In this document: positions 1,373 through 20,156 of the stretch, one piece after another | Layout: each line of letters opens with the position of its first letter | How positions within the stretch are numbered: the first letter of the stretch is position 1 | Virus record (IMG/VR): IMGVR_UViG_3300021168_000043 | Coordinates: 1-48,811 of that record | Direction: 5' to 3' (one strand) | DNA length: 48,811 bases | DNA from: a virus | Made by a program: the position numbers and the translations under genes | Notes under the pieces: model-generated | The model's database searches: none | The model's input: only the letters and a program-made list of their open reading frames with translations | Told to the model about the DNA's origin: nothing

Positions 1373-1463
1373 GGATGGCTGCCAGAACGGTAATTGGACC
1401 GGCCTTATAAGCCGAGGTCGCGCCCTCAACCAGCGCGTGCGGGTTCGACCCTCGCGCCATCCG
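1373..1463 (+). tRNA. tRNA-like gene, anticodon UAU, long variable arm
   Basis: The fold can be traced by hand. Acceptor GGATGGC (1373-1379) pairs with GCCATCC (1456-1462). The D-arm is CCAG/TTGG around an 8-nt loop containing GG. The anticodon arm has loop CTTATAA at 1404-1410, with four good pairs and a C-A mismatch at its base. A long variable arm has a 5-bp CGCGC/GCGCG stem (1419-1423/1433-1437). The T-arm is GCGGG/CTCGC around TTCGACC. The anticodon is UAU, which would read AUA (Ile), yet long variable arms normally mark Leu, Ser or Tyr tRNAs. No CCA is encoded. The acceptor can extend by two more pairs. Confidence 0.65.
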
Positions 1464-3410: not shown

Positions 3411-3529
3411 TTCGTTCTCCTTTTTGATTTGTGAATACTTTGGTGGGGAGATCGGGCCAATACGCATGCCAGCCACGCCCTAGCCCGAATTTCGCCCTTT
3501 CTATTTCTGCCTTACCTGCCTACGCTTAC

Positions 3530-3973: not shown

Positions 3974-3997
3974 TGAAGAATAAGCTCCTGAGTAAGA

Positions 3998-4234
3998 TTA
4001 AGGGGTAGAGGGGGGAGTGTCAAGAGGCAAATTCTCCAGCACCTCCCGGCACACGGAGCAGAGCTGGCCGCCGTTTTTTAGGACCGACACGCCGTCTGTG
4101 GTGTGGCAGATGTCGCAGTGGAAGAGATGGGAGATTTTGGCTTGGCGGATCTGTTGGCGGCGGTAAGGGCGGCAGTGCTTCCAGAGCCACGAATCGATGC
4201 GGGGAGGGAGATGGAGGCGTAGGCGTAAGGGCAT
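3998..4234 (-). CDS. Small zinc-ribbon-like protein
   Basis: 78 residues. The N-terminal half is rich in Arg and Leu. A C-x2-C (CDIC) and a second C-x2-C (CSVC) are separated by about 17 residues, typical of a treble-clef or zinc-ribbon metal site. It is probably a nucleic-acid or protein-binding accessory protein. It lies 4 bases from the next gene in the leftward operon. Specific role unknown. Confidence 0.65.
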   Translation of the reverse strand: MPLRLRLHLPPRIDSWLWKHCRPYRRQQIRQAKISHLFHCDICHTTDGVSVLKNGGQLCSVCREVLENLPLDTPPSTP

Positions 4235-4593: not shown

Positions 4594-6269
4594 CAAAGCA
4601 CCTCCTCCATCGGCACCGTCTCCACCCTGCCGCTTGCATACTCCAGCTCCACCGTTTTCTCCGCCCGGTCGGGGTAGGCCGTAGCCTCCCCGCTCTCCGC
4701 CCGGTTCTTAAACTCCGCCTCCCACCATTCCGTGCCATCCCGCCGTTTAAAGGGCACCATAATCTCCACCAGCTCCTTCTTAGCCCTGGTCACGGCTACG
4801 TAAGCAAGGTTGGTTTCCTGCTGAATCTGCCAATCTTTCCGTGCGTAAGGACTAGGCATATAGCGGTTGCGCCCGATTAAGAATACGCGATCCCACTCCC
4901 GGCCTTTCGATCTGTGGATGGTGCATAGGCGTAGGATGTCCTGCTGATTGTCGCCGAAGAGAAACTCAATCTTATTCACCAGATCATCCGTCGTCTTGAC
5001 GCTCCGGTAATGGCAGAGGTCTTTGAGTATCTCGCAGCGGTCCACCAAGGCCTCCGCCTTGCCCTCTTTCCCGGCGTCCTCAAGGCGTTTCGATTCCGAA
5101 TCCTGGTAAGCGCCCAGATACTCCAGGAACTCCTCTATGCCGATGTCCTCCCCCCATTTGGTGGCGAGGGCGATCAAGCCTTTAGTGGATGCGCCTTCTA
5201 CCACGCATGCGATGTCCATCTCCCGCAGCCGCATGGCCACCCCGACGAGGGGCCGAGTGTTCCGGCATAGGATTACGTCGTCGGGGGAGAGGCCGCCAGT
5301 CTGCGCGACCTTCCAGAAATCTGTATGGGTGAGGTTGGTGACATCGCCTTCAGGGGCGGACGGATGCGCCTCAAACTTAGGCACCCACGTCTGGGCCACT
5401 GTCACCACGCTTTTGGGGCAGCGGTAGGTGACGGATAGAGGAAGCTCATTGGAATCGAGCTGCCGCTTGATGATCTCCATCGAATCGGACGAAGCCCCGG
5501 CAAATCCGTAGATGGCCTGATGAGGATCACCCACCGCCACCAGCCGGGAGTTCTTATGCATCATCTCATACGCGATCAGCCGCCGCGCCGTATTGGTATC
5601 CTGGGCTTCGTCGATCATCACCCAATCGTACTTCCGGAACGGCGCATGGTAGTAGAGGGGGGCCAGGAGCATGTCATCGAAATCAATCACCTGCTCACAC
5701 TGTTCCAAACTCTCCCTGTAGACCTTGATGCACACTTGGATGAAGTCTTCCGTGGGCATCCCACCTGGAATCTCCTCCCTGATGTCGTAGTAGTCGATGA
5801 TGTCCTCCCAGGGCTTGGTATCAGACAGTGAGGTCTGCCCGCGTACGCCTAAGCAGTTCTGTTTAGCGAAGCTTACGGCGGAGCAGATGACGCTCACCAG
5901 CTTCTTATCCCACATGGCCGCCGGTGTGGAGGTCTTGGCGATCTTCCTGACCTTCTGCCCGTCCGGCGTCTGCAACCGCTTCGCCACCTGCCGCCATGCC
6001 CCGTACCCGGCGGAGTGGATGGTCGCGCCTTTGACGTGGTGAGAGCCTTGAGCTTGCAGGCGGGCGGAAAATTCATCGGCAATGGCCTTATTAAAAGCGC
6101 CGCAAAAGCCGGAGCCATGGATGATCTTAGCGATCTCCATAAGGGTGGTGGTCTTACCTGTGCCCGCGTAGGAGATGAGGTTTAGGCTGCCATGGCCGTT
6201 CCGTACCCATTCGAATACGGCAAGCTGTTGGGGTGAAGGGATGAAGGGGCGGGCGCTGGAGGGGGTCAT
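4593..6269 (-). CDS. UvrD/Rep-like superfamily 1 DNA helicase
   Basis: 558 residues from the ATG at 6269, which has AGGGGG about 10 bases upstream. Walker A is Y-A-G-T-G-K-T-T-T (about residues 34-42), Walker B is M-I-D-E-A-Q-D-T, and motif VI is Y-V-A-V-T-R-A-K-K-E-L near residue 505. The order matches SF1A 3'-5' helicases, but it is shorter than UvrD (about 720), with reduced 2B-type insertions, as in phage Dda/UvrD-like helicases. It would unwind DNA at the fork or in recombination. It belongs to the leftward replication operon and is coupled to the small gene downstream. Confidence 0.93.
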   Translation of the reverse strand: MTPSSARPFIPSPQQLAVFEWVRNGHGSLNLISYAGTGKTTTLMEIAKIIHGSGFCGAFNKAIADEFSARLQAQGSHHVKGATIHSAGYGAWRQVAKRLQTPDGQKVRKIAKTSTPAAMWDKKLVSVICSAVSFAKQNCLGVRGQTSLSDTKPWEDIIDYYDIREEIPGGMPTEDFIQVCIKVYRESLEQCEQVIDFDDMLLAPLYYHAPFRKYDWVMIDEAQDTNTARRLIAYEMMHKNSRLVAVGDPHQAIYGFAGASSDSMEIIKRQLDSNELPLSVTYRCPKSVVTVAQTWVPKFEAHPSAPEGDVTNLTHTDFWKVAQTGGLSPDDVILCRNTRPLVGVAMRLREMDIACVVEGASTKGLIALATKWGEDIGIEEFLEYLGAYQDSESKRLEDAGKEGKAEALVDRCEILKDLCHYRSVKTTDDLVNKIEFLFGDNQQDILRLCTIHRSKGREWDRVFLIGRNRYMPSPYARKDWQIQQETNLAYVAVTRAKKELVEIMVPFKRRDGTEWWEAEFKNRAESGEATAYPDRAEKTVELEYASGRVETVPMEEVL

Positions 6270-6271
6270 TT

Positions 6272-6484
6272 TTACAATCCCCCTGTGATGCCGCCGCGAG
6301 GATTCCATACTGCTTTGGCGGTACGTTCCCGTGCTTCTGCCAATTTAGAGGCACACTTTTTACACTGTCTTGGCTCTTTGTCGAAACGATCCGCCTCACG
6401 AACTGCAATGTGGGCGTCCTGTCTACCACAATAAACGCGCCCTTGCGGTGCGTAGTGAACTATGCCTTGATTGTTTGCTGCCAT
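6272..6484 (-). CDS. Small Cys/His protein
   Basis: 70 residues. A lone Cys in V-Y-C-G-R and a C-x2-C (C-K-K-C) about 20 residues later give a possible metal site. The C-terminus is basic. It ends 2 bases before the helicase start. Its leader carries an exact copy of the dispersed palindrome (6530-6542) and a G-rich tract ending in GGAGGAAAG before the ATG, so it may start a transcription or regulation sub-unit. Confidence 0.6.
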   Translation of the reverse strand: MAANNQGIVHYAPQGRVYCGRQDAHIAVREADRFDKEPRQCKKCASKLAEARERTAKAVWNPRGGITGGL

Positions 6485-6529
6485 TTCTACTTTCCTCCCA
6501 CCTCCACCTTACCCCAACTTCCCCCATTT

Positions 6530-6542
6530 TTCTCCCGGAGAA
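6530..6542. promoter_or_regulatory. Exact copy of the dispersed 13-bp palindrome (intergenic)
   Basis: TTCTCCCGGAGAA in the 109-bp gap between two leftward genes. On the minus strand it is followed by AAAAA and a G-rich tract containing GGGGTAAG. The same arrangement is found in the leader at 10002-10014. A short GTACTA/TAGTAC inverted repeat lies beside it (6563-6586). Confidence 0.65.
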
Positions 6543-6593
6543 ACACGGGAGGATAGGGGATTTGTACTAGGATTTTTCTGTAGTACCACCAGA

Positions 6594-6761
6594 TCAGCCG
6601 CCGCAATGCTCACACCGGGCACGCATTCCGTAGTTTCCGGCTGTCCATCGACAGAGACGCCCACAATCAGGGCATCGGCGCTTGGCGTTATCCTCTGCAA
6701 TTTTACGCGCTCGCAGTAGCCTCTGCTCAAGTGTCAAGCGATTTACTTGCTTACGCCTCAT
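6594..6761 (-). CDS. 55-residue zinc-ribbon protein
   Basis: A basic N-terminal helix (Arg/Lys/Leu-rich) is followed by C-P-D-C-G and, about 18 residues on, C-E-H-C-G-G at the very end: a complete two-knuckle zinc ribbon. Its ATG overlaps the stop of the gene upstream (6751-6879). A longer ORF in another frame (6509-6730) is its shadow. Likely a nucleic-acid-binding accessory protein; target unknown. Confidence 0.65.
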   Translation of the reverse strand: MRRKQVNRLTLEQRLLRARKIAEDNAKRRCPDCGRLCRWTAGNYGMRARCEHCGG

Positions 6762-6879
6762 CTTCTATTCGCCCTTTTGAAATTGGCGGGGCCGCATCCC
6801 ACGTCACCCAAGAATGCGCCGGACCCGGAGGAAAGAGTGATCCAGCCATCCGGTGGTTTTCCCGCAGTAGCGGCCCCAT
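6751..6879 (-). CDS. 42-residue hypothetical protein
   Basis: Starts one base after the TAA of the Spo11-like gene and overlaps the start of the zinc-ribbon gene by 11 bases, filling the gap exactly. It is rich in Pro, Gly and Trp and ends acidic. The tight packing is the main support. No function can be assigned. Confidence 0.5.
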   Translation of the reverse strand: MGPLLRENHRMAGSLFPPGPAHSWVTWDAAPPISKGRIEDEA

Positions 6880-6880
6880 A

Positions 6881-7786
6881 TTAGGACTCTTCTAAGAATT
6901 CAGTAACAGACTGCCAGTGGTCAGACACGAGTTGTAGATGGGCCTTGGCTTGATCTTCGGCTTCCGTAGCGGCTTCCCAAGCGTCGGCATCCCTTATCCC
7001 CTCCACAGCCTCCCGAATAAGCGCCACAAGCACGGTCGGCTCTAAGGCGTCTAACTCCCAGCTCTCATCCCCATATTCTTCTTGGTACGCCTGAAAGCGG
7101 GCATCCGTGGTTTTAGCGGGGTTGGGCGGAGGATCGAACTCACGGATCTGATCCATGTTAAGCGCCAGCCGCTTCATCCTCACGTCGCCGCGAGTGAAGA
7201 GATTGAGCCGGTCCTGAATATCACGGGTCATATCGAGGCCGGAAGGGTCGTGGTCGCCTAAGTGAAAGATCACCGGCGTCTGCCCCCGCTTCTTATACCC
7301 CTGCAGCCGCATCGCCCCGGCCCACATTTCCGAGGCAGAGGTATAGCCTCTGCACGAGAAGTAGGGCACGTCTAATTCCGTGCATACGCCTGCGATCACG
7401 CCTATGAGGGCGTCCTTCTCGATCCATACTTCAGGCCGCTGCTTCTGGGTGTTCCACTTCTCATGCCGGAACTGATAGGCGCATGCCTCTACGATGGAAG
7501 AGGGGTCGGCCCAATGCGCGTTCTGGCGCACGTTGCGGGTGCGGTCCTCAAGATGCTCCCAGTCGATCAGGCCAGCAAGGCGGGCGTCGTTGATAAGGGA
7601 GCCTAGATTCTTGTAAGACTTCTCCTGGTTCGGGATGAGGTCGCGGGAAACGAATTGGTAGTAGAGCTGGCGGAGAGTGAGGGTGAAGCCTTGGGCTTCG
7701 TACTGGGTGATGATTTCGTTTGCCTTATCGATCATCGCGATGGAGCGGGCGTTAAAGTTCTTGGGCGTATAGCAGATTTTAGGCAT
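6881..7786 (-). CDS. Spo11/TopoVI-A-like TOPRIM protein
   Basis: 301 residues. Near residues 38-47 it has L-R-Q-L-Y-Y-Q-F, like the tyrosine motif of the winged-helix 5Y-CAP domain in Spo11 and topoisomerase VI A. The second half carries a TOPRIM signature: E123 in W-I-E-K-D and D178/D180 in G-D-H-D-P-S-G. Both catalytic parts of a TopoVI-A-type DNA-cleaving enzyme are therefore visible, with no B-subunit ATPase in the window. Similar phage and prophage proteins are mostly unnamed. It overlaps the SLOG gene by 8 bases. Role in DNA cleavage or replication is inferred. Confidence 0.75.
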   Translation of the reverse strand: MPKICYTPKNFNARSIAMIDKANEIITQYEAQGFTLTLRQLYYQFVSRDLIPNQEKSYKNLGSLINDARLAGLIDWEHLEDRTRNVRQNAHWADPSSIVEACAYQFRHEKWNTQKQRPEVWIEKDALIGVIAGVCTELDVPYFSCRGYTSASEMWAGAMRLQGYKKRGQTPVIFHLGDHDPSGLDMTRDIQDRLNLFTRGDVRMKRLALNMDQIREFDPPPNPAKTTDARFQAYQEEYGDESWELDALEPTVLVALIREAVEGIRDADAWEAATEAEDQAKAHLQLVSDHWQSVTEFLEES

Positions 7787-8267
7787 TGAATTTCTCCCAC
7801 TTCCCCCACAGATTCACAACTTCCTTCTTCTGCTCAATCGCATATTTGATACAATTCCAGGTGCCGCCCTTTGAGCCGTCGTGAAGCGCCAGAATCTTAT
7901 CAGCCCGTTGCACCATCCATTGATTACGGGCTTGCATCTTCCAGGCGTCGTAAGTGCCCGCGCACACTACTGTAACGGATTCAGCTTCCTTCAATAGTTT
8001 GAAGTACCGGCGTTGCGTCTCGACGGGCCATAAGTCTGACTGGCCATGAAAAGGTACAGCGGCAATGAATGGTATGGCGGAGTCTACACAGGCGGACGCT
8101 ACCGCCATATCCCATCCATCAGCCATGCCGCAGATTAGCTTCAGGCTGGCGTCGGCGCTGGCCATATTCTCAATTTCTCGCAAGGCGAAGCCCATAAGCT
8201 TCCCTTGAGCGAAAGCTGTAAAGCCGCCTAGTTTAAGCGGTCTATGTCCAGTTGCTGCCCAAATCAT
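7779..8267 (-). CDS. SLOG-family (YpsA/DUF1273-like) protein
   Basis: 162 residues with a Rossmann-like pattern: N-terminal A-A-T-G-H-R-P, then I-C-G-M-A-D-G-W-D near residue 48, and a final strand with L-A-L-H-D-G-S-K-G-G-T. These match the SLOG superfamily (YpsA, TIR-associated and DprA-related nucleotide-binding folds). Members bind nucleotide or nucleic-acid ligands; several work in stress, NAD or defence systems. The gene is coupled to the Spo11-like gene downstream. Its ligand is unknown. Confidence 0.8.
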   Translation of the reverse strand: MIWAATGHRPLKLGGFTAFAQGKLMGFALREIENMASADASLKLICGMADGWDMAVASACVDSAIPFIAAVPFHGQSDLWPVETQRRYFKLLKEAESVTVVCAGTYDAWKMQARNQWMVQRADKILALHDGSKGGTWNCIKYAIEQKKEVVNLWGKWEKFNA

Positions 8268-8374
8268 TTCTTCCTCCGATTCACTGGAAACGCATAAAAC
8301 GACACAAATATCACGGCGTAGGTTGCGGCGGCAAGCAAGATGCCGGAGAGGACCAAGCCTCTAACGATACTCAT
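8264..8374 (-). CDS. 36-residue single-span membrane peptide
   Basis: An N-terminal Arg followed by about 22 hydrophobic residues, then a basic tail ending R-R-K-K. Start and stop overlap both neighbours by 4 bases (ATGA on each side), strong support for translation. It may be a small inner-membrane effector; function unknown. Confidence 0.6.
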   Translation of the reverse strand: MSIVRGLVLSGILLAAATYAVIFVSFYAFPVNRRKK

Positions 8375-8541
8375 CTTCGGCTCGCCTCAAGTTTGGCTGC
8401 GGATAATTTGAACGCTTTTTTCAGCCAGGAGATAAACGACCGCTTGTCGGGATGGCCCCACGTTTCAATTTCGTCGATGATCTCCGCAAAACACTGGTCG
8501 TAACCCTGCTCGAAGTACTTCTGTTTTTCGTCTTCAGTCAT
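8371..8541 (-). CDS. Hypothetical helical protein
   Basis: 56 residues from the ATG at 8541, behind a GGGAAGGGGGAGGGGG tract. The upstream in-frame extension overlaps the next gene and is not used. It is acidic in the middle (E-I-I-D-E-I-E-T-W) and basic at the end. Translational coupling links it to the membrane peptide gene. Not recognised. Confidence 0.6.
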   Translation of the reverse strand: MTEDEKQKYFEQGYDQCFAEIIDEIETWGHPDKRSFISWLKKAFKLSAAKLEASRR

Positions 8542-9273: not shown

Positions 9274-9374
9274 CGGCACATCCCCCAACGCATCAGTGCC
9301 AGATCGAGGCATAAGCCTAAGAACGGGCCTACGCCGAAGAGTACGAGGAGGGAAGTGAAGGAGGGGCGGGTCAT
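9264..9374 (-). CDS. 36-residue membrane peptide
   Basis: One hydrophobic span of about 22 residues after a short basic N-terminus, ending in Cys/Arg. It overlaps the downstream gene by 10 bases and the Ala-rich gene's stop by 4 bases. Packing and hydrophobic profile support it. Function unknown. Confidence 0.5.
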   Translation of the reverse strand: MTRPSFTSLLVLFGVGPFLGLCLDLALMRWGMCRCL

Positions 9375-9949
9375 TTGGTCGCTTCCACAGTAAAGTCCTC
9401 AGACCAAGGTTGTGCTAATCGGGAACGGATTAATGCAAGAGAATTGGCGTGCGATTCTGCCCGTGCAGCATCAGCAGCATCAGCATCAGCAGCAGCATCA
9501 GCTGCAGCATAAGCAGCAGCATCAGCAGCATAAGCAGCATCAGCTGCAGCATAAGCAGCATCAGCTGCAGCAGCATCAGCAGCATCAGCAGCAGCATCAG
9601 CTGCAGCATAAGCAGCATCAGCAGCATAAGCAGCATAAGCAGCAGCATCAGCAGCAGCAGCCCGCGCCTTGCGTCGATTCTCCTCGCTCGGATCATCGGC
9701 CCAACGCTCCGCCGCTTCAATAGCAGCTAACGCTCGTGGGTCCTTCGTGAGGTGTAACACTGTTCTGGCAATCGCGCACGCCACAAGCACGATCTCTTGC
9801 TTTGAGGCCCCATCCTTAGCAGCCCACCACAATAGCCAATCCGCCCGTTCGCATTGCTCCCATGCCTCTTTGGCCGTGCGATCCCCAGCCCATACACGGG
9901 CTTCTTGGCATGCGCCGATTGCTTTTAAGTGTTGCTTAAACGTCATCAT
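9371..9949 (-). CDS. Ala-rich repeat protein of the 'putative immunity protein' type
   Basis: 192 residues from the ATG at 9949, which has AAGGAG about 9 bases upstream. The N-terminal domain (1-95) has the pattern A-C-x-E-A...W-x-x-C-E-R-x-D-W-L-L-W-W and T-V-L-H-L, familiar from a widespread phage and bacterial family often labelled putative immunity protein. Residues about 97-160 are near-pure Ala with Asp and Tyr every few positions (A-D-A-A, A-Y-A-A), encoded by a short tandem DNA repeat. The repeat should form a long helix and may vary in length between relatives. True role unknown. Confidence 0.7.
   Translation of the reverse strand: MMTFKQHLKAIGACQEARVWAGDRTAKEAWEQCERADWLLWWAAKDGASKQEIVLVACAIARTVLHLTKDPRALAAIEAAERWADDPSEENRRKARAAAADAAAYAAYAADAAYAAADAAADAADAAAADAAYAAADAAYAADAAAYAAADAAADADAADAARAESHANSLALIRSRLAQPWSEDFTVEATK
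9465..9660. repeat. Tandem GCAGCATCA/GCAGCATAA-type repeat
   Basis: About 195 bp built from 3-bp-phased variants of GCAGCATCAGCAGCATAA and GCATCAGCTGCAG. It encodes the Ala/Asp/Tyr helix of the gene on the minus strand. The repeat stays in frame throughout. Such repeats expand and contract by slippage. Confidence 0.85.
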
Positions 9950-10001
9950 TCTTTTCCTCTCCTTCACGATCTTACCCCTATTCCTCCCTATTCCTCCCTT
10001 T

Positions 10002-10078: not shown

Positions 10079-11101
10079 ATGGACTTGATACGGATCGCCA
10101 CCGAATACGGAACCGAGGAAGCCTGCCTGAACTACCTGGAAAAGGCCCGTTGGCCGGAAGGCGTCCGCTGCATTCACCGGAACGAGGAAACCGGAGAATT
10201 GGACTGCCAGTCCGACAAGATCACGAAGTTTTCCACGAAAGAAGGTCAGCGAAAGCCCAAGGCCGGAGAAAAAGAGGGGCGCAAGATCCCCGCACGGCAT
10301 CTCTACCAGTGCCAAGAATGCGGCTACCAGTTCACGGCCAAGACTGAAACCCTGTTCAACGATTCGCACTTGCCCCTAGTGAAGTGGTTCATCGCCGTCA
10401 CGCTGCTTACCAACGCGAAAAAGGGCATGAGTGCGGCACAGCTTCAGCGCGATCTGAAGGTAAACTATCAGACGGCGTGGTATGTATCCCACCGTATCCG
10501 TGAAGCGATGAAGGCAGAAGGCGGCTTATTCGGCGGTACGGTCGAGATGGACGAAACCTACATTGGTGGACGCTTTGACCCACGTCGGCATGAAGAGCGG
10601 CAGACTCATAAGCAAACGGTGATGGGTGTGGTGCAACGCTCGAACGAAGAAAAACCCTCGCAAGTTGTCGCCTTCCCCGTTCCTGGTCGCGGAACGCCAG
10701 TGATTCGCGCAGCCGTTCGGGAGCACGTTGCAAAGGACGCCAAGATCTACACCGACGAATGGTCCGGATATCGCCACATGCGCCACGAGCGCCCAGGTCT
10801 GTTCGAGATAGTCATACACTCGCGCGGTGAGTATGTTCGCGGCGACGTTCACGTGAACACGCTGGAAGGCTTCTGGTCACTATTTGAGCGCCAACTGACC
10901 GGCCAGCACCACTGGGTTTCCGTTAAACATTTGCAGAGGTATTTGGATGAGCGGTGTTGGTCGTACAACAATCGCAAGGAAGCCGACCTATTTCAGGCGG
11001 TCATCATTCGCTTGGCGATAACGGCGGCGCTGCCTTATGCGAAGTTGACCGCTGGACCGAGCGCCTCCCCGCGAACGAAACGTCGCGGCCCTCGCGCCTA
11101 A
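10079..11101 (+). mobile_element. IS1595-family (ISXO2-like) transposase
   Basis: 340 residues. The N-terminal zinc-ribbon region is modified (C-I-H-R-N...C-Q-E-C-G-Y-Q-F). The ISXO2-like DDE domain then carries V-E-M-D-E-T-Y-I-G-G, a second Asp in I-Y-T-D-E-W-S-G-Y, and H-V-N-T-L-E-G-F-W-S near residue 260, the hallmark third segment. It would cut and join its own element's DNA. It reads against the surrounding leftward operon, consistent with an insertion into a phage intergenic gap. I could not find terminal inverted repeats or a target duplication by eye, so the ends are unset (somewhere near 10030 and between 11300 and 11790). Confidence 0.9.
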
Positions 11102-12166: not shown

Positions 12167-12570
12167 TTTTCGTATTCCATTCTTCGGTCTTCGTATTTTT
12201 TTCCCGGTGTGAAGCGGTAATCCCACCACTGATCTGCGAGGAGGAACATGATTCGTATGGGATGCTCGACGAAGAAGGGCCAACGGGGCTTACGCTCACG
12301 ATGGGATAGATAGTCCGTTTCTCCGGGAGGTAGTCCGAAGCGGATCATCCTCACTTCGGTTTTGAAGTCCATGGCGGGGATAGTGAACGTTTTGAAATCT
12401 ATCTTGGGGGAAGAATCCAACGGTTCATACAGTTCCACGGCATGGAGAGGGCAACGCCGGTAAACCAAGTTGTCTTTGACGATCTCTACGGCGTAGCTGT
12501 CGAGCGTGGCGTAGATATCGGAAAGTCGGCTTTCAGGGGACCAAATCATTTTTAGTTCATCGCTCGTCAT
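12163..12570 (-). CDS. Hypothetical protein downstream of the polymerase
   Basis: 135 residues from the ATG at 12570, overlapping the polymerase stop. The middle has two Cys (R-R-C-P-L-H). The C-terminal half is rich in aromatic and basic residues (W-P-F-F, W-W-D-Y-R-F). No known domain. Coupling to the polymerase gene suggests a replication-linked role (inference). Confidence 0.6.
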   Translation of the reverse strand: MTSDELKMIWSPESRLSDIYATLDSYAVEIVKDNLVYRRCPLHAVELYEPLDSSPKIDFKTFTIPAMDFKTEVRMIRFGLPPGETDYLSHRERKPRWPFFVEHPIRIMFLLADQWWDYRFTPGKKYEDRRMEYEK

Positions 12571-14045
12571 TTGAGGTCCGACCACCTTTCTCCTTCGTCC
12601 GAAGAGGACCGTATTGGGATAGAAAGCGGGGTGGCATGTTCCAACACGTCCGTAGCTACGTCCGCGTAGTCCTTGGCCTGCCCTTTATTCACCTCTGACA
12701 AAATCTCGTCATGCACCTGGGCGAGAGGCAAGCAAACACCACCTTTGTTGAGAAGCTCAGTAATGGGGCAAAGCTCTGCCATTCCTAGTTTTATGGTACC
12801 TGTCGCGCTCGACTGGACCCCGTGATTTCCGGCCTTGCGGAGGCCTTCGTTTTTGATACGTTTATGGACTGAATAGACTTCAGGAACGTAGCGCATACGT
12901 CCGAATGCGTCCCAGACCATGCCCCAGCGGCGGGCACGCGAATACTGAAGCTCAAGCCATTCTTTGATCTTGGCGTAAGTCGCGTACCACTGATTGATGA
13001 GTTCTTCACAACGGGCGAGGGTCCATTTTTGCTCGAATGCGCGGCGCTCCTCATCTGTCCAATTGGGATCTTTGGAAAGCATGATCGATTCCAGGAGTCC
13101 CTGGGCAGTCTGGCCGTAGAGGATGCCGAAGCCTAGGGTCTTAGAGGGGAGGCGCTCGAATTGGGTGAAATATTTGTACGTTCTCTGTTCGTCTATAGAG
13201 GCCACTCCCGATTTGACTTTCTTTTTGAGGGTGGAGATTTCGTTGAGATCGCGCCCGAATATTTCGCATGCGGTCCGATCATGCACATCTTCATCCCTGA
13301 AGAACACATCCATCATCAAAGGGTCTTGTGAGAGATGAGCGGCCCATCGCATCTCGATTTGACTTAAATCATTTGCAACCAACACGTTACCGGGGGAGGC
13401 GATGAAGGCCCCTCGGATCATTTTCCCCAGTACGGTACGGGTCGGCTGATTTTGGATATTGGGATTGAACGCGGCTAGGCGGCCTGTGGCGGCAGTCGTT
13501 ACGGAGAATCTCGGATGGACACGGGAGTTTGAATCTGCCCATTGTTGAAGCGGGAGGACGTAAGTGCCTAGGAGCTTGTCTAGCTCACGCCAATCTAGGA
13601 CTAGGCCACAAGCCGGGTGGCGATCCCGATAAAGCTCAAGCACATCATCAGACGTAGAAGCGCGTTTCTCACTCTTCGTAAGCGGGAGAGGATTGGTGCC
13701 CTGGATCTTGAGATGCCGGAAGAGAAGGCGCTCGACTTGATCCGGGGAGCCTACGTTGAAGGGCTGATAGGAGCCTTTGTGGAAGTCCTGGTAGGAAGGG
13801 CCGATGGAGGCCATTAAGGCTTCTTCTATGCCGAGTTGGCCACGGAAGGATTTTTCTTTGCCGTCGATGATGCGGGTGAAGTGGTGAGAGGTGAAATCGG
13901 ATTGGAGCTGGCGGAGGTAGGGGAGGTCTACACGGATGCCGTTCTGATGAAAGAGCTGGATCATCGGCAAAGCCCCAAAATCCAATCTCCTGACGTTTAC
14001 GGGACTAGGCCGATCGATAAAACGAACGCCGTTGTAGAGCCGCAT
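12567..14045 (-). CDS. Family A DNA polymerase, polymerase domain only
   Basis: 492 residues from the ATG at 14045, one base after the upstream TAA. Motifs in order: T-G-R-L-A-A-F-N-P-N-I-Q-N-Q (about 188-201), motif A D-L-S-Q-I-E-M-R (226-233), motif B K-T-L-G-F-G-I-L-Y-G (302-311) with the Phe that favours dideoxy discrimination, and motif C V-H-D-E (444-447). It begins in the thumb, so the 3'-5' exonuclease domain is missing here; that domain is encoded separately at 16715-18268. Together the two products would form a complete proofreading phage replicase. Confidence 0.95.
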   Translation of the reverse strand: MRLYNGVRFIDRPSPVNVRRLDFGALPMIQLFHQNGIRVDLPYLRQLQSDFTSHHFTRIIDGKEKSFRGQLGIEEALMASIGPSYQDFHKGSYQPFNVGSPDQVERLLFRHLKIQGTNPLPLTKSEKRASTSDDVLELYRDRHPACGLVLDWRELDKLLGTYVLPLQQWADSNSRVHPRFSVTTAATGRLAAFNPNIQNQPTRTVLGKMIRGAFIASPGNVLVANDLSQIEMRWAAHLSQDPLMMDVFFRDEDVHDRTACEIFGRDLNEISTLKKKVKSGVASIDEQRTYKYFTQFERLPSKTLGFGILYGQTAQGLLESIMLSKDPNWTDEERRAFEQKWTLARCEELINQWYATYAKIKEWLELQYSRARRWGMVWDAFGRMRYVPEVYSVHKRIKNEGLRKAGNHGVQSSATGTIKLGMAELCPITELLNKGGVCLPLAQVHDEILSEVNKGQAKDYADVATDVLEHATPLSIPIRSSSDEGERWSDLK

Positions 14046-14046
14046 C

Positions 14047-14340
14047 TTATTTGAGAGTTCTCCCGCAGAATCGGCAGGTGCGGCCAAAGACACGTAATTC
14101 GCCCGGGGAAACGAATGCGCGTTTTAGATGAGCGGCGCGGCCAGAACAGTGGATGCAAACTCCAAGCATCTTCAGAGCAACTACGGCATTGGGCTTAAAC
14201 GGTTTGAACTCCGGCGGTTTGTAGTTAGCGGCCCACTTGCCCAAGGTTGAGCCTAGAGCGGCCCCAGCCATCGAGAAGAGATCTTCCCGGCTGATCGAAT
14301 CTGCGAAGCTGGGGGAAACAGGATTCTTTCTTCGTTTCAT
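14047..14340 (-). CDS. Small Cys-rich protein ahead of the polymerase
   Basis: 97 residues. Two Cys pairs sit in the C-terminal half: C-I-H-C around residue 58 and C-R-F-C near the end, making a likely zinc-binding site. The N-terminus is basic and Ser-rich. It overlaps the upstream gene by 4 bases and ends one base before the polymerase ATG. Could be a DNA-binding accessory protein. Confidence 0.6.
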   Translation of the reverse strand: MKRRKNPVSPSFADSISREDLFSMAGAALGSTLGKWAANYKPPEFKPFKPNAVVALKMLGVCIHCSGRAAHLKRAFVSPGELRVFGRTCRFCGRTLK

Positions 14341-14732
14341 ACTTTGTCGTCCAGATTTATTGGATCTTGTTTCCAGCTAGAATCGTGGGCACGCCATTCC
14401 CCTGCCTTGTGGTACGGTCCTTCTTTGCGGTGCCAGAAAGTAACCCATACATCAGCCCAGTCAGAATCAACGCGGTGCATCCGAAGATCAATGAACAGCT
14501 TATTAGCAATTTCGGCTGGGCCAGAATCTCCACGCATGGAATAGCTGTGGATTGCAGCGACGACATAAGGCCCGCCATCTTTGGCCGTGCCTAAGTAACC
14601 GCCGGAAGGCTCTACTAACTCCGCTACGCAGTAGGTCGAATGAAAGGCTTCGTAGACGGCTTCTTTGAATTGCTCGATAGTAGTGCCGGGAAGAAGCTCG
14701 CCTTCGATGTAGTAGGTCTTAGTATTGCCCAT
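14337..14732 (-). CDS. Hypothetical protein
   Basis: 131 residues, mixed alpha/beta, starting T-Y-Y-I-E-G-E-L-L-P-G-T-T. The C-terminal half is rich in Trp, His and Asp (D-S-D-W-A-D-V-W-V-T-F-W-H). No signal peptide or known motif. A GGGCGAA leader precedes it. The gap upstream (14733-14910) holds one partial palindrome, TTCTCCCGGATCA (14810-14822), and no clear gene. Confidence 0.6.
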   Translation of the reverse strand: MGNTKTYYIEGELLPGTTIEQFKEAVYEAFHSTYCVAELVEPSGGYLGTAKDGGPYVVAAIHSYSMRGDSGPAEIANKLFIDLRMHRVDSDWADVWVTFWHRKEGPYHKAGEWRAHDSSWKQDPINLDDKV

Positions 14733-14910
14733 TTCGCCCTTTCTTTTCTTTACTTTAGTGCGGAGTCCGGTACTGATTCATGAGAGCATTTTCCTTGCTC
14801 TGTATCCGGTTCTCCCGGATCAACACATCCCGGCCCGCACTACAATGCCTCGCCTTGCCCCCAGAAACGACGCAGGAGCGGCTTTCAGCCCCTCCGCCGC
14901 CCCCAACTAT

Positions 14911-15285
14911 CTACCTCTCGCGGCGCGTCCTGAGGCGTTTCTTACCTTTAGCCTTTGTTAACAACGACTTCCCACACTTATTAGCCTCTCCCCCCTGTTT
15001 CTCCCGCATCGCCTTACGTTCGCGGCGCTCTTTTTCTTCCCTGGCGTCGATCTCCTCCAGATTCAACTCCACCAAGGTGGGCTTGGCTTTGGGGTTGCGC
15101 CGGATGCCGATGGATTCGAGGAAGCTGCCCGTCATGGTCGCTTGAGAACGATTCTGCGGGTGGGCGCGAATTTCGTCCATCTTATCCCGGACACGCTCGA
15201 TCTCGCGTAGGCTCGCATTGACCGCACGTTTCCTGTCTTCTTCGAGGATGTCCAGAATTTCGAGAGCTGCGGGATCGTAGGCCAT
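14911..15285 (-). CDS. Basic coiled-coil hypothetical protein
   Basis: 124 residues. The whole N-terminal half is a predicted coiled coil (I-L-D-I-L-E-E-D-R-K-R...I-E-R-V-R-D-K-M-D-E-I). A second charged helix follows (E-E-K-E-R-R-E-R-K), and then a very basic Lys/Arg tail. It looks like a nucleic-acid or virion-binding scaffold; the true role is unknown. It starts 5 bases after the HTH gene. Confidence 0.6.
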   Translation of the reverse strand: MAYDPAALEILDILEEDRKRAVNASLREIERVRDKMDEIRAHPQNRSQATMTGSFLESIGIRRNPKAKPTLVELNLEEIDAREEKERRERKAMREKQGGEANKCGKSLLTKAKGKKRLRTRRER

Positions 15286-15290
15286 AAGAT

Positions 15291-15671
15291 TCAGGAGACT
15301 CCTTCACGCTCCGGCATGTACCAGAGTTCGTTTTGCCCTGCTGGTCTAGGGCCGCGTCTGGGCTTCATCCGGAGATGCGTGTGAATGAAGCCCAGATACT
15401 TGGCAAGAGACGGAAGCTGGTAAGCAGTAGCTAGGGCTATCGCCCGATCCACCGTGTCAAGCTGCGGACTACCGCCGTAAGCTCCAGATTCGATCTTCTC
15501 CAGCATCGGCACCGAAATCGCCAGCTTGAAGGCGAGAGACTCACGGCTCAGGTGGGAGTGCTCTCGCAGTGCGGAGAAGGCTTGGGCAGGATTGGCATAG
15601 CGTTCTGGCTCTTGAGCTACACCGCGCCGACGCCGGAGGAGCTTGCCGTAAAAATTTACTGCTGCGTTCAT
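15291..15671 (-). CDS. XRE-like helix-turn-helix protein
   Basis: 126 residues from the ATG at 15671, with AAGGAG upstream. Residues about 28-80 form an HTH: F-S-A-L-R-E-H-S-H-L-S-R-E-S-L-A-F-K-L, then P-M-L-E-K-I-E-S-G. This is the classic Cro/CI pattern, where the second helix and E-S-G turn close the motif. It is a candidate to bind the dispersed palindrome or the nearby repeat region. The C-terminus is basic and Pro-rich. Confidence 0.7.
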   Translation of the reverse strand: MNAAVNFYGKLLRRRRGVAQEPERYANPAQAFSALREHSHLSRESLAFKLAISVPMLEKIESGAYGGSPQLDTVDRAIALATAYQLPSLAKYLGFIHTHLRMKPRRGPRPAGQNELWYMPEREGVS

Positions 15672-15889
15672 ACATGCTCCTTGAGCCAAGCCTTCTCATC
15701 ATCGGACTGAGTTTCTTCCGGCCAACGGATCGCCACGGCGCGGGCATAATTCGGCGTGTTGAATTGCGGGGGGCATTTCTTCAAAGCCGCTTCAGGGCTA
15801 CTTGCTCTCACTTCTCTCAGACACGAATACATCGACACACCGCGCACTGAACGCCGATCATTCGTGAAAATTCGATATCTCTGCGTCAT
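15668..15889 (-). CDS. Hypothetical small protein
   Basis: 73 residues from the ATG at 15889, overlapping the previous gene's stop (TTATGA) and the next gene's start. The start M-T-Q-R-Y-R-I-F and the A-S-S-P-E-A-A-L-K-K-C segment resemble small phage proteins with a beta-alpha-beta DsrE-like or dsRBD-like pattern, but I cannot assign a family. Confidence 0.55.
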   Translation of the reverse strand: MTQRYRIFTNDRRSVRGVSMYSCLREVRASSPEAALKKCPPQFNTPNYARAVAIRWPEETQSDDEKAWLKEHV

Positions 15890-16233
15890 AATTGCATGTC
15901 CTTCAGGCTTGGGTTCAGCCGGTTCAGCTCCGTATGCGGAAATTGGAGTACCTTCAGCGCCCCTCTGCCCCGCGCCACTTCCCAAAGCGCCTCCGACAGA
16001 TTGGATTCAATCAGCGCCTCAAGCTGCGGGTTAATCGAATGCCACGTAGCTTGCGCCCTCCCCCACGGCCCCGCCGCGACCGCCCGCTCGTACAACAAAT
16101 GGTGGGAGTAGTAAACCTTCAACCCCTCATCCGCCAGCACCAGATAGCATACAATCTCGCTTTTCGACCTCTGGCTGTGGATGGACGTAATCTCCACCCG
16201 CCACACATCCGGGTTATCGGTAGCAGTGACCAA
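15886..16233 (-). CDS. Hypothetical protein with TTG start
   Basis: 115 residues. The start is TTG at 16233, backed by AAAGGAG about 9 bases upstream; no ATG fits. The N-terminal half is beta-rich (W-R-V-E-I-T-S-I-H...I-V-C-Y-L-V-L) and the C-terminal half helical. It is the first gene leftward of the repeat-rich origin-like region, so its transcript probably begins in that region. Confidence 0.55.
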   Translation of the reverse strand: MVTATDNPDVWRVEITSIHSQRSKSEIVCYLVLADEGLKVYYSHHLLYERAVAAGPWGRAQATWHSINPQLEALIESNLSEALWEVARGRGALKVLQFPHTELNRLNPSLKDMQL

Positions 16234-16479
16234 GCCCCAGCTCCTTTCTTCTCTTAACCACCCTCTTATTATATATCACGCTTTTCCAATTATGACGCGT
16301 AATCATTGGTAAAATCACAGCGTGCACATTACCCCTAATCAACACATTCTACATATACTTAGGTACGTTTTTAGGTGTTTTTAGGTGTGCAATAAGGCCG
16401 GAAAACGTCGGGAGAAATCGTCAACTTTACGCTTTCTTTACCTTTTCTTCGCCTTTTTGGCCTTTCTCCCGTGTTTTTT

Positions 16480-16492
16480 GTCTCCGGGAGAA
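16480..16492. promoter_or_regulatory. Dispersed palindrome, 12 of 13 match
   Basis: GTCTCCGGGAGAA, the inner end of the left arm of the 32-bp inverted repeat. It is followed by AATTTGGAGGAGGGG, the same A-tract plus G-tract order seen after other copies. Confidence 0.6.
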
Positions 16493-16598
16493 ATTTGGAG
16501 GAGGGGTAAAAACGTGGAAAAAACTCCTAAATTTCCGGGAGAAAGGGGTTTGTAAAAAACCGGGTGGTCATTTTCTTTACGTACCTTTACAAATAGTC

Positions 16599-16611
16599 TT
16601 CTCCCGGAGAC
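16599..16611. promoter_or_regulatory. Dispersed palindrome, 12 of 13 match
   Basis: TTCTCCCGGAGAC, the inner end of the right arm of the 32-bp inverted repeat. A half site GGGAGAAAGGGG follows 10 bp later. Confidence 0.6.
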
Positions 16612-16714
16612 AAAAAACACGGGAGAAAGGGGTTTGTAAAAAGTTGCCGGTCCATTTTCTTTACAGTCCTTTACAAATGGCTTACAAATTCTGCGGTTTT
16701 AGGCTTAGGGCTTC

Positions 16715-18268
16715 TTATGGGCGGTAGGTATTGAGGTACCGGGAGAGCCTAAGCGTGGCATCGGCGTCAGGGCAAGCATACCCTACCAGCTCCTTTTCGG
16801 GGACTAAGGCGATGGATTTCTCCGGGAGAAGGCCGAAGAGGGAGTAGAGGAGATCGATCTCCCAGGGGTGCCATTCGGAAATGGTGTGCCAGGGATCGAC
16901 AGGTTTGGGGGAAGAATGAGGCGTAAGAAGATCATTAAGCACCTTGGTGGAGAGGCCACGGAGCTTGCGGATGAGAAGATTGGTAAGCTTGTCGGGCTTA
17001 GGGGATGGACGGCGGGAGAACTTTTCGCAGGAGCATGGGCCGAAATTAGATTCTTCGGCTTCATGGAGGCAGTAGCCGGAATGGCGCTTGCTCTTGCCTT
17101 TTTCCTTATGCTTGCTTTGTGGGTGGCCACACATACAAAAGGGTTCAGGATCGGATGCTTCAGAGGACGCTAGAAAGGATGTGGCTCGATCCAGATAATC
17201 ATAGACTAGGGGAAGGGCGTGAGGGCGAACCACATCATTAAAAGACTGCATCTTCATATTGAGATGGCGATAGGCCAAGACCTTTAAGCCTAAGCTTCCT
17301 CTGGCGGCCCCGGAGTCTTCATCGTCGCCGCCTCCGCCGATGCCTAGGTTGTAGGCGCGGACCATGGTGTCACTGAATCTTCTGGGGTCGATGGGCAGAC
17401 CCATGGAGGCGTAGGGGGAGGCGTCGGCTAGGTAAGCGTGGAAAGAGAGCAGAGGGCGGTAAGCTTTCAGGTAAGAGGCGTAGGAACCAAGGATAGCTTT
17501 ATTGTCGGCGTAGATGAGACGGGCGGTGCCAGGGGTATGGGAGAAAGTTAGGCAGTGGGGATGGGTGGGGGAGAGGAATTCTGTGTCTGTGCCAAATTCG
17601 TAGAAGTGTTCGTTGAATCTGCCTATACCACCAACTAGGTCTAAATAGGCGTCGAATTCGGAGAGAGTGCATAGGACGGAGTAGTCGGTGGCGGGGTATG
17701 AGTCGGAGGGCCAGGAGAAGGTGCCGGAGTCCAGATCCTTAAGGAGAAGGCGGAGGGCGGCGAAATCCTTGCGAAGGGGGATCATGTAGGCGGTGGAGCG
17801 GAGACCAGCGGCGGGGTGGAAGGTGGGGAAGACGATGCCGGACCAAGGGCCGTAAGATGCGGGTTGGGGGAGGCCGTGGTGAAGGACTAGGGAGATAGAG
17901 GGGAAGAGAGAGGCGGAGATCGCGCCCATGGTGACGATTACTTGGGGGTTTACTTTTTCGAGGAGGGCGGGGAGGTGCTTGGCGGAGCATGTGGCGGCTT
18001 CGTGTTCTTTGGGATTACGGTAACCTTTATCGGAACAGAGCACAGCATTAGAAACGGCTACGTCTTCGCGGTAGAGAGCACAGAGGGGGAGGTATCCGTT
18101 ATTAAACTCCATCCCCGATTGGCCACGGTCGGCAAGGGGGATGCCTTGCTCGTCTTCGTGACGGGCGGGCCTTTCTGCCAAGAAAAGAATTCGGCAGGGG
18201 GAGGGGCCGGAAGGGGGGATGGGATTGCGGCCACGAACGCATGGGCATATGGAGCAACGGGAGATCAT
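16715..18268 (-). CDS. Uracil-DNA glycosylase-like domain fused to a 3'-5' exonuclease
   Basis: 517 residues. Residues 1-175 follow the Fe-S UDG family 4 plan: Cys at 5/8/10, then Cys78 and Cys94 spaced as in that family, and H-P-A-A at 151-154. The first UDG motif is altered (A-E-R-P-A-R-H-E-D-E), so glycosylase activity is doubtful. Residues 215-517 match the PolA proofreading domain: D-T-E (228-230), H-A-Y-L-A-D, D-T-M (300-302) and Y-A-C-P-D near the end. A C-M-C-G-H...C...C-S-C zinc-knuckle insert lies near 378-414. An exact palindrome copy lies inside the gene (16818-16830). It supplies the exonuclease that the polymerase at 12567-14045 lacks. Confidence 0.85.
   Translation of the reverse strand: MISRCSICPCVRGRNPIPPSGPSPCRILFLAERPARHEDEQGIPLADRGQSGMEFNNGYLPLCALYREDVAVSNAVLCSDKGYRNPKEHEAATCSAKHLPALLEKVNPQVIVTMGAISASLFPSISLVLHHGLPQPASYGPWSGIVFPTFHPAAGLRSTAYMIPLRKDFAALRLLLKDLDSGTFSWPSDSYPATDYSVLCTLSEFDAYLDLVGGIGRFNEHFYEFGTDTEFLSPTHPHCLTFSHTPGTARLIYADNKAILGSYASYLKAYRPLLSFHAYLADASPYASMGLPIDPRRFSDTMVRAYNLGIGGGGDDEDSGAARGSLGLKVLAYRHLNMKMQSFNDVVRPHALPLVYDYLDRATSFLASSEASDPEPFCMCGHPQSKHKEKGKSKRHSGYCLHEAEESNFGPCSCEKFSRRPSPKPDKLTNLLIRKLRGLSTKVLNDLLTPHSSPKPVDPWHTISEWHPWEIDLLYSLFGLLPEKSIALVPEKELVGYACPDADATLRLSRYLNTYRP
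16818..16830. promoter_or_regulatory. Exact copy of the dispersed 13-bp palindrome (inside a gene)
   Basis: TTCTCCGGGAGAA near the 3' end of the UDG-exonuclease gene, encoding Leu-Leu-Pro-Glu-Lys. It lies about 200 bp from the repeat cluster and may add to it, or may only reflect preferred codons. Confidence 0.4.
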
Positions 18269-18957
18269 TCCACTAATCCGCCTTCCGCGTTTTCTTCTTC
18301 TAAGGCTAAGGTGTCTTCTTCGTTGATCTGGGAGGCTTCCCAGGCTTCGCTGAATTCCCGGTTGGAGAACATTTCGGCTAGGCCGCTGATTTGAGAGAGG
18401 CGGAGGACTTCATCAGGGTCCATGCCAAGCTCGCGGCCTATCTTCTCATTGCTCCAGTTACGGCGCTTCAGCTCCACCACAATTTCACTCATGGCGTCGA
18501 TCTGGTGCTTGCCGCGAGCGCGGTTATGGCGGATGGTGGCGGCGATTAGGTCGGAGCGGTCTTGACGGTCGGAGTTGATGATGGTGATGGGGAGGTAGCC
18601 TAGGACACGGTCCCGGACTTCGGCACATTCTTTGCCTACGCGGTTGCGGTGGAATCCGTCTACGACTACGAAGCCCTTGCCTTCTGCCATGGCGACGATT
18701 GGTTGGGTGTAGCCGTCATTCTCGATAGAAATCTGGAGAAGCTTCATTTCAGGGGGAGCCACGTTGTTTGGGTTGTAATCGTTGGCTTCCACTAGATCGC
18801 TCTTTATCCAGAGTACGCAGTCTACAGGCTCATTCTTGAGTGGGCTTACAGAATGAATAGCGAGCTTGATCTTGTTAATCGCTTCTACGCAGTCATCCGT
18901 GTCGAGCTTCTTAAGATACTTCAACAAGGCGTTGACGTAGGGCTTTATAGATTCCAT
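18265..18957 (-). CDS. ibrB: IbrB-like ParB/Srx-fold protein
   Basis: 230 residues from the ATG at 18957, with GGAGAGAGAA just upstream. A ParB-type N-terminal domain has L-V-E-A-N-D-Y-N-P-N-N-V-A and V-V-V-D-G-F-H-R-N-R (about 105-115), then a helical DNA-binding-like region (I-A-A-T-I-R-H-N-R-A-R-G, and I-G-R-E-L-G-M-D-P-D-E-V-L-R). This is the domain order of IbrB, which with IbrA activates distant prophage genes in E. coli. It overlaps the IbrA-like gene by 13 bases. Whether it regulates, or acts in DNA modification, is open. Confidence 0.8.
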   Translation of the reverse strand: MESIKPYVNALLKYLKKLDTDDCVEAINKIKLAIHSVSPLKNEPVDCVLWIKSDLVEANDYNPNNVAPPEMKLLQISIENDGYTQPIVAMAEGKGFVVVDGFHRNRVGKECAEVRDRVLGYLPITIINSDRQDRSDLIAATIRHNRARGKHQIDAMSEIVVELKRRNWSNEKIGRELGMDPDEVLRLSQISGLAEMFSNREFSEAWEASQINEEDTLALEEENAEGGLVE

Positions 18958-20156
18958 TTCTCTCTCCGGCGTTTCATCAAGTCCAGGTATTTTTGGTAGG
19001 CTTCGGAGCGGTGCTGGGTGAAGCTTAGGCCTTTGCACCAATAATCGTTCCTAAGAAGACTTTTGCACACTCGCCGCCACGAGGGAACTTTGCGGTCAGC
19101 CTCCAATTTGTAATCGGCTTCGTCGGGGATGCCGTCTGGATAGCCACGTTCCATCCACCATTTTCTGAAGACAGCGATCTTATTCCCATAATGGATACGG
19201 GTGCATGGAGGCATGGAACGGATGAGAAGATCGGCGAAGCTTTCCCAGGTGTGGCCTTCGGGTTTGCTGATGCGGCGGTACCCGGTCATGTTGCCGGATT
19301 CCTGGACGTAGAGAGCGCCTCCGTTAGCGCCGTTTACGCGGGCGACAACGCGGCCCCAGGTTTCGGGCTCGATGAGGTGGAAGAGCCATAAGCCCTTGCG
19401 CTGGTCGTCGCCGTAGGGCTGGCAGATACGCATCTGGGAGACGGTGAGGCCAGCCTTGTGCATGAGGTCGTAGAGGTGATTATGGGGGAGGGATTTGTTT
19501 TTGCCGTGGTAGGTCCAGATGTCTTCGGTCTTCCAGTCGTAAATGGGGTAGACGTTGTAGACTTCTGGGGAGGTTACTAGAGTGGTCCAGCGTACTCCGT
19601 CCTTCATTTGCTTGTTGGGGCTTGAGATGGTGCGGTAGCGGTTGAGGCTTTCATCGGCCCGGATGCCTACGAAGCAGGCGCATGGGAGGCCTTGGCCGTA
19701 CCAAGCTCCGAATTCAGGGACGAACTCCTCGAATTCCATGCCGGAGTGGAAGAATGGGAAGAAGGACGGATCAGTGATCGCTATGGCTGGGGGAGTTCTG
19801 ATCCAAGCTGGTTCTTTTGTTTTTTCCCAACACACCCAATGAGTCTCGTATACGCTTACGGCGTTACGAAGATGAATAGGCAGGCAGCACCAATACGGGT
19901 CGATGTGGTCTTCGTATTGGCGGTAACACCGCATGATGTGGTTGATAGTGATAGTGTATTGGCCTTCGAGGTCGATGAAGAGGACGCCTACTTTTCTGTC
20001 TCTTCTCACGGCTTCGTCCATTACGAGGTGGAGCATCACGGTGGAGTCTTTGCCGCCGCTGAAACTTATGTAGATGCGCTCGAAATGATCGAAGGTCCAG
20101 GAGATGCGGCGGCAGGCGGCCCGGAGGACGTTGATGCCTAGGCCGTGTTTAGGCAT
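18945..20156 (-). CDS. ibrA: IbrA-like PAPS-reductase-family (PP-loop) protein
   Basis: 403 residues. The PP-loop S-G-G-K-D-S sits at 33-38, typical of N-type ATP pyrophosphatases and PAPS reductase/DndC relatives. The downstream pattern (F-I-D-L-E-G-Q-Y, P-Y-W-C-C-L-P, P-I-Y-D-W-K-T-E-D-I-W) matches IbrA/DUF3440-type proteins. PAPS-reductase-specific ends are absent, so sulphate reduction is unlikely. Adenylation of a substrate, perhaps DNA sulphur or base chemistry or a regulatory activity with IbrB, is inferred. Operon order is 20149-20532 gene, ibrA, ibrB, all overlapping. Confidence 0.85.
   Translation of the reverse strand: MPKHGLGINVLRAACRRISWTFDHFERIYISFSGGKDSTVMLHLVMDEAVRRDRKVGVLFIDLEGQYTITINHIMRCYRQYEDHIDPYWCCLPIHLRNAVSVYETHWVCWEKTKEPAWIRTPPAIAITDPSFFPFFHSGMEFEEFVPEFGAWYGQGLPCACFVGIRADESLNRYRTISSPNKQMKDGVRWTTLVTSPEVYNVYPIYDWKTEDIWTYHGKNKSLPHNHLYDLMHKAGLTVSQMRICQPYGDDQRKGLWLFHLIEPETWGRVVARVNGANGGALYVQESGNMTGYRRISKPEGHTWESFADLLIRSMPPCTRIHYGNKIAVFRKWWMERGYPDGIPDEADYKLEADRKVPSWRRVCKSLLRNDYWCKGLSFTQHRSEAYQKYLDLMKRRREKWNL

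Follow-up and report, generated by a model that had tools for sequence, protein, structure and literature searches.

In family A DNA polymerases, exonuclease and polymerase are as a rule one rigid chain. Some phage replicases, that of SPO1 for example, have a domain resembling uracil-DNA glycosylase (UDG) fused to PolA. PaBG gp205 carries an N-terminal UDG, a 3'-5' exonuclease and a C-terminal polymerase in one chain (PubMed Central, PMC7412058), and in the phages PMBT14, Tlacuache, StAshley and Manatee Spring the fused enzyme is a single annotated gene. Separate genes for the polymerase and the 3'-exonuclease are described for the LUZ24-group phages (tf, PaP3, LUZ24) and for phiEco32 (PMC3517423), and the annotations of tf and phiEco32 likewise give the two separately. 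In the OM43 phages MEP401 and MEP402 a family A polymerase lies in two open reading frames (ORFs) with a small ORF between them (PMC10580990). A proofreader on a separate chain is also found with the phiKZ-type family B polymerase (PMC7824862), with Pol III, where it is DnaQ (PMC12926913), and in Pol D, DP1/DP2 (PMC8775771). Here we describe a locus in a virus record that is linear and 48,811 bases long (IMGVR_UViG_3300021168_000043, called the window below; it may be a fragment, and the host type is bacteria) in which the parts of the PaBG-type enzymes lie in the same order on two genes 2.7 kb apart. It is probable, on balance, that the products of these two genes are subunits of a single family A replicase with proofreading. 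The parts are as follows.

16715..18268, minus strand: UDG-exonuclease (UDG-exo) subunit, 517 aa; PF03167, profile from fused relatives only, AlphaFold model
17729..18268, minus strand: family-4-like Fe-S UDG domain with altered uracil pocket, residues 1-180
16718..17695, minus strand: PolA-type DEDDy 3'-5' exonuclease domain, residues 192-517
17027..17137, minus strand: Cys/His-rich insert in the exonuclease, CxCGH...C...CxC, residues 378-414
12567..14045, minus strand: polymerase subunit (thumb, palm and fingers of family A), 492 aa from ATG 14045; PF00476
13965..14045, minus strand: N-terminal tag of the polymerase, MRLYNGVRF-IDRPSPVNVRRLDFGALP, an LYNGVR-like pattern

The earlier note on this DNA, which had been made from the letters alone, pointed to phage replicases with a UDG-like domain fused to PolA, and the PaBG-type enzymes do have the same parts as the pair in the same order. 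They differ in being one polypeptide, where the window has two genes, and in that the fused ORFs compared have no LYNGVRL tag at the junction between exonuclease and polymerase. With the LUZ24 group and phiEco32 the window shares separate exonuclease and polymerase genes. These phages have neither tag nor UDG, and their exonucleases, of 168 and 185 aa, were not matched by the exonuclease profiles made here; the polymerases of tf and phiEco32 form a far branch of their own (100* in a quick tree from which five rows were left out), so that the window polymerase does not descend from within that lineage. In MEP401/402 the cut falls within the polymerase domain and the exonuclease stays with the N-terminal part, while the phiKZ-type enzyme, Pol III/DnaQ and Pol D resemble the window in their separate proofreader and belong to other polymerase families. 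Alike in arrangement, too, is MW202554.1 (ctLwi270, circular, 44,345 bp), where a UDG-exo gene is followed by a separate polymerase gene and a ParB-like gene stands just upstream, as in the window; its polymerase differs in having no tag. It was the sole split record among the phage-collection matches opened. No report of a UDG-exo gene paired with a tagged polymerase was found in the open-licence PMC literature, subscription papers being mostly outside the search. Separate family A exonuclease and polymerase genes are thus known already, and it is the version with UDG-exo and tagged polymerase that appears new.

Relatives of the locus, numbered with L below, were collected via the topoisomerase gene and via motif patterns. 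One of them, L010 (19.3 kb), was obtained by a search with the window's topoisomerase gene; its UDG-exo and polymerase genes are split, and the gene order is that of the window. Identity between the two records is 62% for UDG-exo and 73% for the polymerase.

The earlier note had assigned a 3'-5' exonuclease to the C-terminal part of the 16715-18268 product, joined to an N-terminal UDG-like domain. For the exonuclease half Pfam gave no match at E 0.1 and PHROG a weak one (phrog_17, 1.8e-4), so the assignment was unsafe as it stood and needed proof. When a profile was made with fused relatives only, from the exonuclease regions of ten, it recovered the window protein with E 2.1e-26 among the collected ORFs. 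For the same region PF01612 passes the Pfam cut-off in the fused L031, L051, L044 and L066 and in the unfused L064, L038, L033 and L027; in two unfused relatives, L059 and L010, it stays below. The AlphaFold model of the window UDG-exo, built on an alignment of 32 rows, has a mean confidence (pLDDT) of 86.2 and a predicted template modelling score (pTM) of 0.81, and its residues 192-517 superpose on Klenow 324-518 with Z 16.5 (2.7-2.9 A, 173-175 residues aligned) and on M. smegmatis Pol1 with Z 17.4. Among the structure matches of UDG-exo there is also 9qhs, the phiLo family A polymerase, with 359 residues aligned at 16.1 A; it may represent a fused UDG-exo-pol enzyme, and a literature search gave no paper about it. 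The full DEDDy set is present (D228, E230 in the DxE motif, D282, and Y497 and D501 in YxxxD) and is kept in 31 of the 32 alignment rows, the exception being the separate UDG of L027, which has no exonuclease. At the Asn position directly before the second Asp the window has Ala, and the other 30 exonuclease rows have Asn or His. From profile, predicted fold and catalytic residues, we conclude that the C-terminal part of the product is a real PolA-type exonuclease, as claimed. Of the exonuclease-profile ORFs tested, those of the window and L010 alone have the insert CxCGH...C...CxC, which is possibly a zinc site; pLDDT is low there.

The UDG-like half was recognized directly (PF03167 on residues 19-159, E 3.9e-17), and the AlphaFold model of residues 1-180 matches the Thermus (Tth) UDG 1ui1 with Z 23.9 and 2.1 A over 173 residues. 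It has the fold of a family 4 UDG and the four Fe-S cysteines (C5, C8, C78 and C94). The equivalents of E41, N80 and H155 of 1ui0 are kept, and G40, G42, G44 and F54 are replaced by A, R, A and L. Thus the first motif, GEGPG...PF in 1ui0, reads AERPA...PL, an alteration that the earlier note had seen correctly; the family 4 motif GExPG is missing, and L45 stands in place of F54, the stacking Phe. The replaced residues belong to the uracil pocket. L010 shares the altered motif (AERPS...PL), and most split relatives are canonical, with GEAPG...PF and four Cys. One might suppose that the domain is an active glycosylase and that the split lets UDG-exo perform uracil repair apart from the polymerase. 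The canonical relatives and the retained E, N and H equivalents speak for this; R and L at the positions of G42 and F54 in both the window and L010 speak against it, and we regard it as quite improbable. Judging from these residues, the window protein is expected to show no ordinary uracil excision, which may persist in relatives. Because the uracil pocket is altered, the UDG-like domain here would be a DNA- or partner-binding module and not a working uracil glycosylase.

The polymerase ORF (12567-14093, minus strand) is open to GTG 14093 and matches PF00476 on residues 102-505 with E 1.4e-78. In the 508-aa numbering, the alignment shows motif A (D242/E247), motif B (R314/K318/F322) and motif C (H461-D462-E463) to be intact, as in a family A DNA polymerase. 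ATG 14045, the start given in the earlier note, is the likely one, because the similarity to L010 begins there and the L010 start overlaps the upstream stop. No exonuclease model matched this ORF in the Pfam search, so that the chain lacks the 3'-5' exonuclease of phage replicases of this type, in agreement with the earlier note.

Single-sequence and two-row searches of viral contigs with the window proteins gave no second split record beyond L010, and the same held for L010's protein. With a DNA pattern based on the third exonuclease motif (YACxDADATLR), 42 stretches of viral contigs were recovered; the counts that follow rest on this one pattern and are not a census. UDG-exo and polymerase are separate in 20 stretches (L028, which is L010's record, L033, L034, L035, L038, L039, L040, L043, L045, L047, L052, L054, L056, L058, L059, L061, L062, L064, L065 and L069; L047 shows its exonuclease part only, and what the stretches of L035 and L045 lack was read elsewhere in their records). 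Exonuclease and polymerase share one ORF in 18 (L029, L030, L031, L032, L037, L041, L042, L044, L049, L050, L051, L053, L055, L060, L063, L066, L067 and L068), some of them truncated and some without UDG in the ORF; in L030, for example, the UDG is separate from exo-pol. Two are cut inside the exonuclease (L046 and L048), and two end before the class can be told (L036 and L057). L038/L047, L064/L065 and L029/L068 are near-copies. The two open frames of the split loci overlap in L054, L061 and L069, and in L034 the genes are 4.2 kb apart. A second pattern added L027, a relative of the window with UDG (7942-8499), exonuclease (5829-6920) and polymerase (2754-4154) on three genes of the minus strand. 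A scan of genome contigs gave one stretch, L070, in a metagenome-assembled genome of Patescibacteria, where the locus ends ahead of any polymerase, and tblastn of the exonuclease half against phages at E 10 gave a single chance match.

L046 and L048 are two diverged records with overlapping frames (L046, 80-1093 and 787-2493, plus strand; L048, 2496-3581 and 1120-2643, minus strand). They share the position of the cut inside the exonuclease, and therefore the third exonuclease motif is on the polymerase chain; a TTG or GTG ahead of GCTAARCAA is a possible start of the second ORF. Two further loci are interrupted in another way. In L062 (9591-11972, plus strand) the UDG domain is interrupted at the third Fe-S cysteine by about 355 residues, intein-like, with a Cys start and a VVHN-Cys end, and in L068 (3683-6427, plus strand) and L029 the polymerase is interrupted at a TGRL..NPNL site by about 275 residues, also intein-like, with a Cys start and a VHN-Ser end.

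Such inserts, with Cys/HN-Cys or HN-Ser ends, together with the frequency of introns in phage polymerase genes (PMC10580990), could suggest that the window encodes one protein after all, its halves joined by RNA or protein splicing, or that the split is an error of assembly or reading frame. This is very improbable. No Rfam intron was found in nine sources including the window and L010 (141,498 bases), each chain has its own start and stop, no intein-like ends were seen by reading at the ends of the two halves, without a search with intein models, and the intervening genes have frames of their own, three of which are kept in L010. In addition, the split is present on many contigs. The separation of UDG-exo from polymerase is real, old and common to at least 20 other records.

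It was also found that the split polymerases begin in a characteristic way, with an N-terminus of the form (M)xRLYNGVRLL..GPSxxNVxxLDxGAMPMI. Searched as the regular expression [LC][YF][NG]G[VI][RKQ], this tag was recognized in 18 of 21 split polymerases, or 19 of 22 once L079 (the record of L045) was added; of the three outside the pattern, L054 differs by one letter, and in L027 and L033 just the second half is there. None of the 20 ORFs that carry the YAC exonuclease motif and the polymerase together has it (the second ORFs of L046 and L048 being counted among these), and in fused chains this is where the exonuclease finishes and the chain passes into the polymerase. Among the stretches compared in 17 split polymerases, residues 1-9 are the best kept, with a mean top-residue frequency of 0.77 versus 0.56-0.66. 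In a model of L065, described below, the block 621-630, which lies in the tag region, averages a pLDDT of 94, and the preceding block 60. The tag thus sits where the fused chain arrives from the exonuclease, and we infer that it would replace the covalent link as a docking element for the exonuclease.

The epsilon subunit proofreads in trans for Pol III alpha. By analogy, the exonuclease encoded by the window would be recruited in trans to the polymerase and would remove mismatched 3' ends there. Several results are consistent with two parts of one enzyme. No record has more than one PF00476 gene (12 of 12 in one record set; 15 of 17 in another, the other two, which are fragments, having none). 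Polymerases of family C and family B were each found in none of nine records (the window, MW202554.1 and seven further split records). A second complete polymerase, which the earlier note would have taken as evidence against a split enzyme, was therefore looked for in families A, B and C and not found in the window, a linear 48.8 kb that is possibly a fragment. Wherever a record shows both genes, they share a module. Comparison of the window with L010 indicates that both genes are under purifying selection: the ratio of nonsynonymous to synonymous change (pN/pS) is 0.26 for the polymerase, 0.39 for the UDG and 0.51 for the exonuclease, with synonymous sites near or beyond saturation. Exonuclease and polymerase distances run in parallel (r 0.90 over 17 loci; none of 2000 shuffles as high).

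A docking test was made with the L065 pair. Its exonuclease and polymerase were modelled with AlphaFold, joined by a read-through of the 299-residue spacer with stops as Gly, and with alignment rows from split records only. Each folded well, and the polymerase alone matched 3sz2 at 2.1 A over 395 residues; pTM of the whole was 0.51, a value to be read with the meaningless spacer and the lack of a control in mind. The joint match to Klenow was 8.8-9.1 A over 522-556 residues, under the same limits, so a Klenow-like arrangement was not reproduced in this model. The Foldseek alignment spans only some 440 columns, as would fit the polymerase by itself. The earlier note had proposed asking whether the halves dock like one Klenow fragment; the model leans against a simple dock of this kind, although with its meaningless spacer and no control it is a weak test. 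Together with the model, three further points weigh against a single two-subunit enzyme: the exonuclease is the least constrained part, at saturated or nearly saturated synonymous sites; parallel distances fit two parts of one enzyme and show co-inheritance, not contact; and L033 and L027, both of them split, have a reduced tag.

Alternatively, the two enzymes could be uncoupled, the polymerase working without proofreading and UDG-exo being a free repair or DNA-degrading nuclease, both descended from the same fused ancestor. The failure of the L065 model to dock like Klenow would agree with this, as would the three separate genes of L027 and the spacing of up to 4.2 kb in L034. It accounts less well for a tag kept in 19 of 22 split polymerases, for the shared module and parallel distances, and for a complete DEDDy set, and we consider it unlikely, though less so than active uracil repair or splicing. 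The two-subunit replicase is thus the reading we prefer. A more specific form of it is put forward tentatively: the LYNGVRL element may hold UDG-exo in trans as an exchangeable subunit, with the Fe-S UDG-like domain as a DNA sensor or anchor, in an enzyme modular enough to be cut between UDG and exonuclease, between exonuclease and polymerase, and inside the exonuclease. If so, a phage clade would have turned a fixed Klenow-type proofreader into an exchangeable subunit.

A tree of 45 polymerases was used to follow the history of the split. Eight truncated, intein-bearing or near-copy polymerases were left out of it (L029, L041, L047, L049, L050, L056, L062 and L068), as were five far ones (L002, L017, L019, L021 and L075). 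The window and L010 pair at 100/100 and are joined by L027 at 100/99 and by L034, L064 and L065 at 98/92; the fused IMG/VR relatives adjoin the split set. The best tree does not unite the 19 polymerases of the tagged lineage (L027 and L033 included) in a single clade, L067, L046 and L048 falling among them on weak branches; such a clade is compatible with the data (approximately unbiased test, p-AU 0.426), and one clade of all split polymerases is not rejected (p-AU 0.077). The polymerase of MW202554.1 sits on a long branch in a group with the fused L026 and L073 (98/97), so its split is probably a separate event. With MW202554.1 among fused polymerases and tf and phiEco32 far away, more than one event has probably separated exonuclease from polymerase. 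The earlier note had described a fusion broken in this phage, with fused versions to be sought among relatives. Fused versions do exist, in 18 of the 42 stretches, and an enzyme of the UDG-exo-polymerase type is indeed spread over two genes here; the arrangement is not private to the window phage, being an old and common one with a conserved tag. Homing endonucleases were considered as a cause of the split; one of ten ORFs between split genes (in L040) had a weak HNH_3 match under the cut-off, which is insufficient. In G003, the record of L012, whose topoisomerase is 61% identical to the window's, there is a fused exo-pol gene (L021, 1489-4176, minus strand); its N-terminal part is ParB-like by eye and has no UDG match.

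The same enzyme in fused form, in two genes and in three genes makes a matched set for asking how a proofreader is recruited, and this natural set also bears on whether the enzyme needs a covalent link to switch from synthesis to excision and back. As a candidate for recruitment, the tag is short and directly testable. We know of no explanation for the presence of a UDG-like Fe-S domain on so many phage replicases; the question of its role is narrowed, since the domain travels with the exonuclease and not with the polymerase.

In the window the genes are transcribed from the minus strand in the order ParB-like gene, UDG-exo, six small ORFs with an AT-rich gap, polymerase. The neighbouring features are as follows.

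18265-19041, minus strand: ParB-like gene (weak likeness), directly ahead of UDG-exo
16234..16714: AT-rich stretch with no long gene on the minus strand, 481 bases, 41.6% GC
14047..16233, minus strand: six small ORFs separating the two genes, 97-132 aa each
15886-16233, minus strand: small ORF
15668-15985, minus strand: small ORF
15291-15689, minus strand: small ORF, HTH-like (helix-turn-helix)
14911-15285, minus strand: small ORF
14337-14732, minus strand: small ORF
14047-14340, minus strand: small ORF

The six ORFs and the 481-base gap correspond to the seven segments that had been counted between the halves. Three of the six ORFs have counterparts at the same place in L010, with identities of 35%, 46% and 62%; the L010 counterpart of the gap is AT-rich too (41%), and clear sequence similarity is absent. 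A PAPS-reductase-like gene with a DUF3440 domain (18945-20156, minus strand; 1e-34) stands immediately upstream of the ParB-like gene and of UDG-exo. An IS1595-type transposase gene (10079-11101, plus strand; PF12762, 1.5e-31) is on the strand opposite to the replication genes. The window also holds a tRNA of 91 bases detected by Rfam (1373-1463, plus strand) and, at 9371-9967, an ORF of low complexity, rich in Ala, Asp and Tyr and open in several frames.

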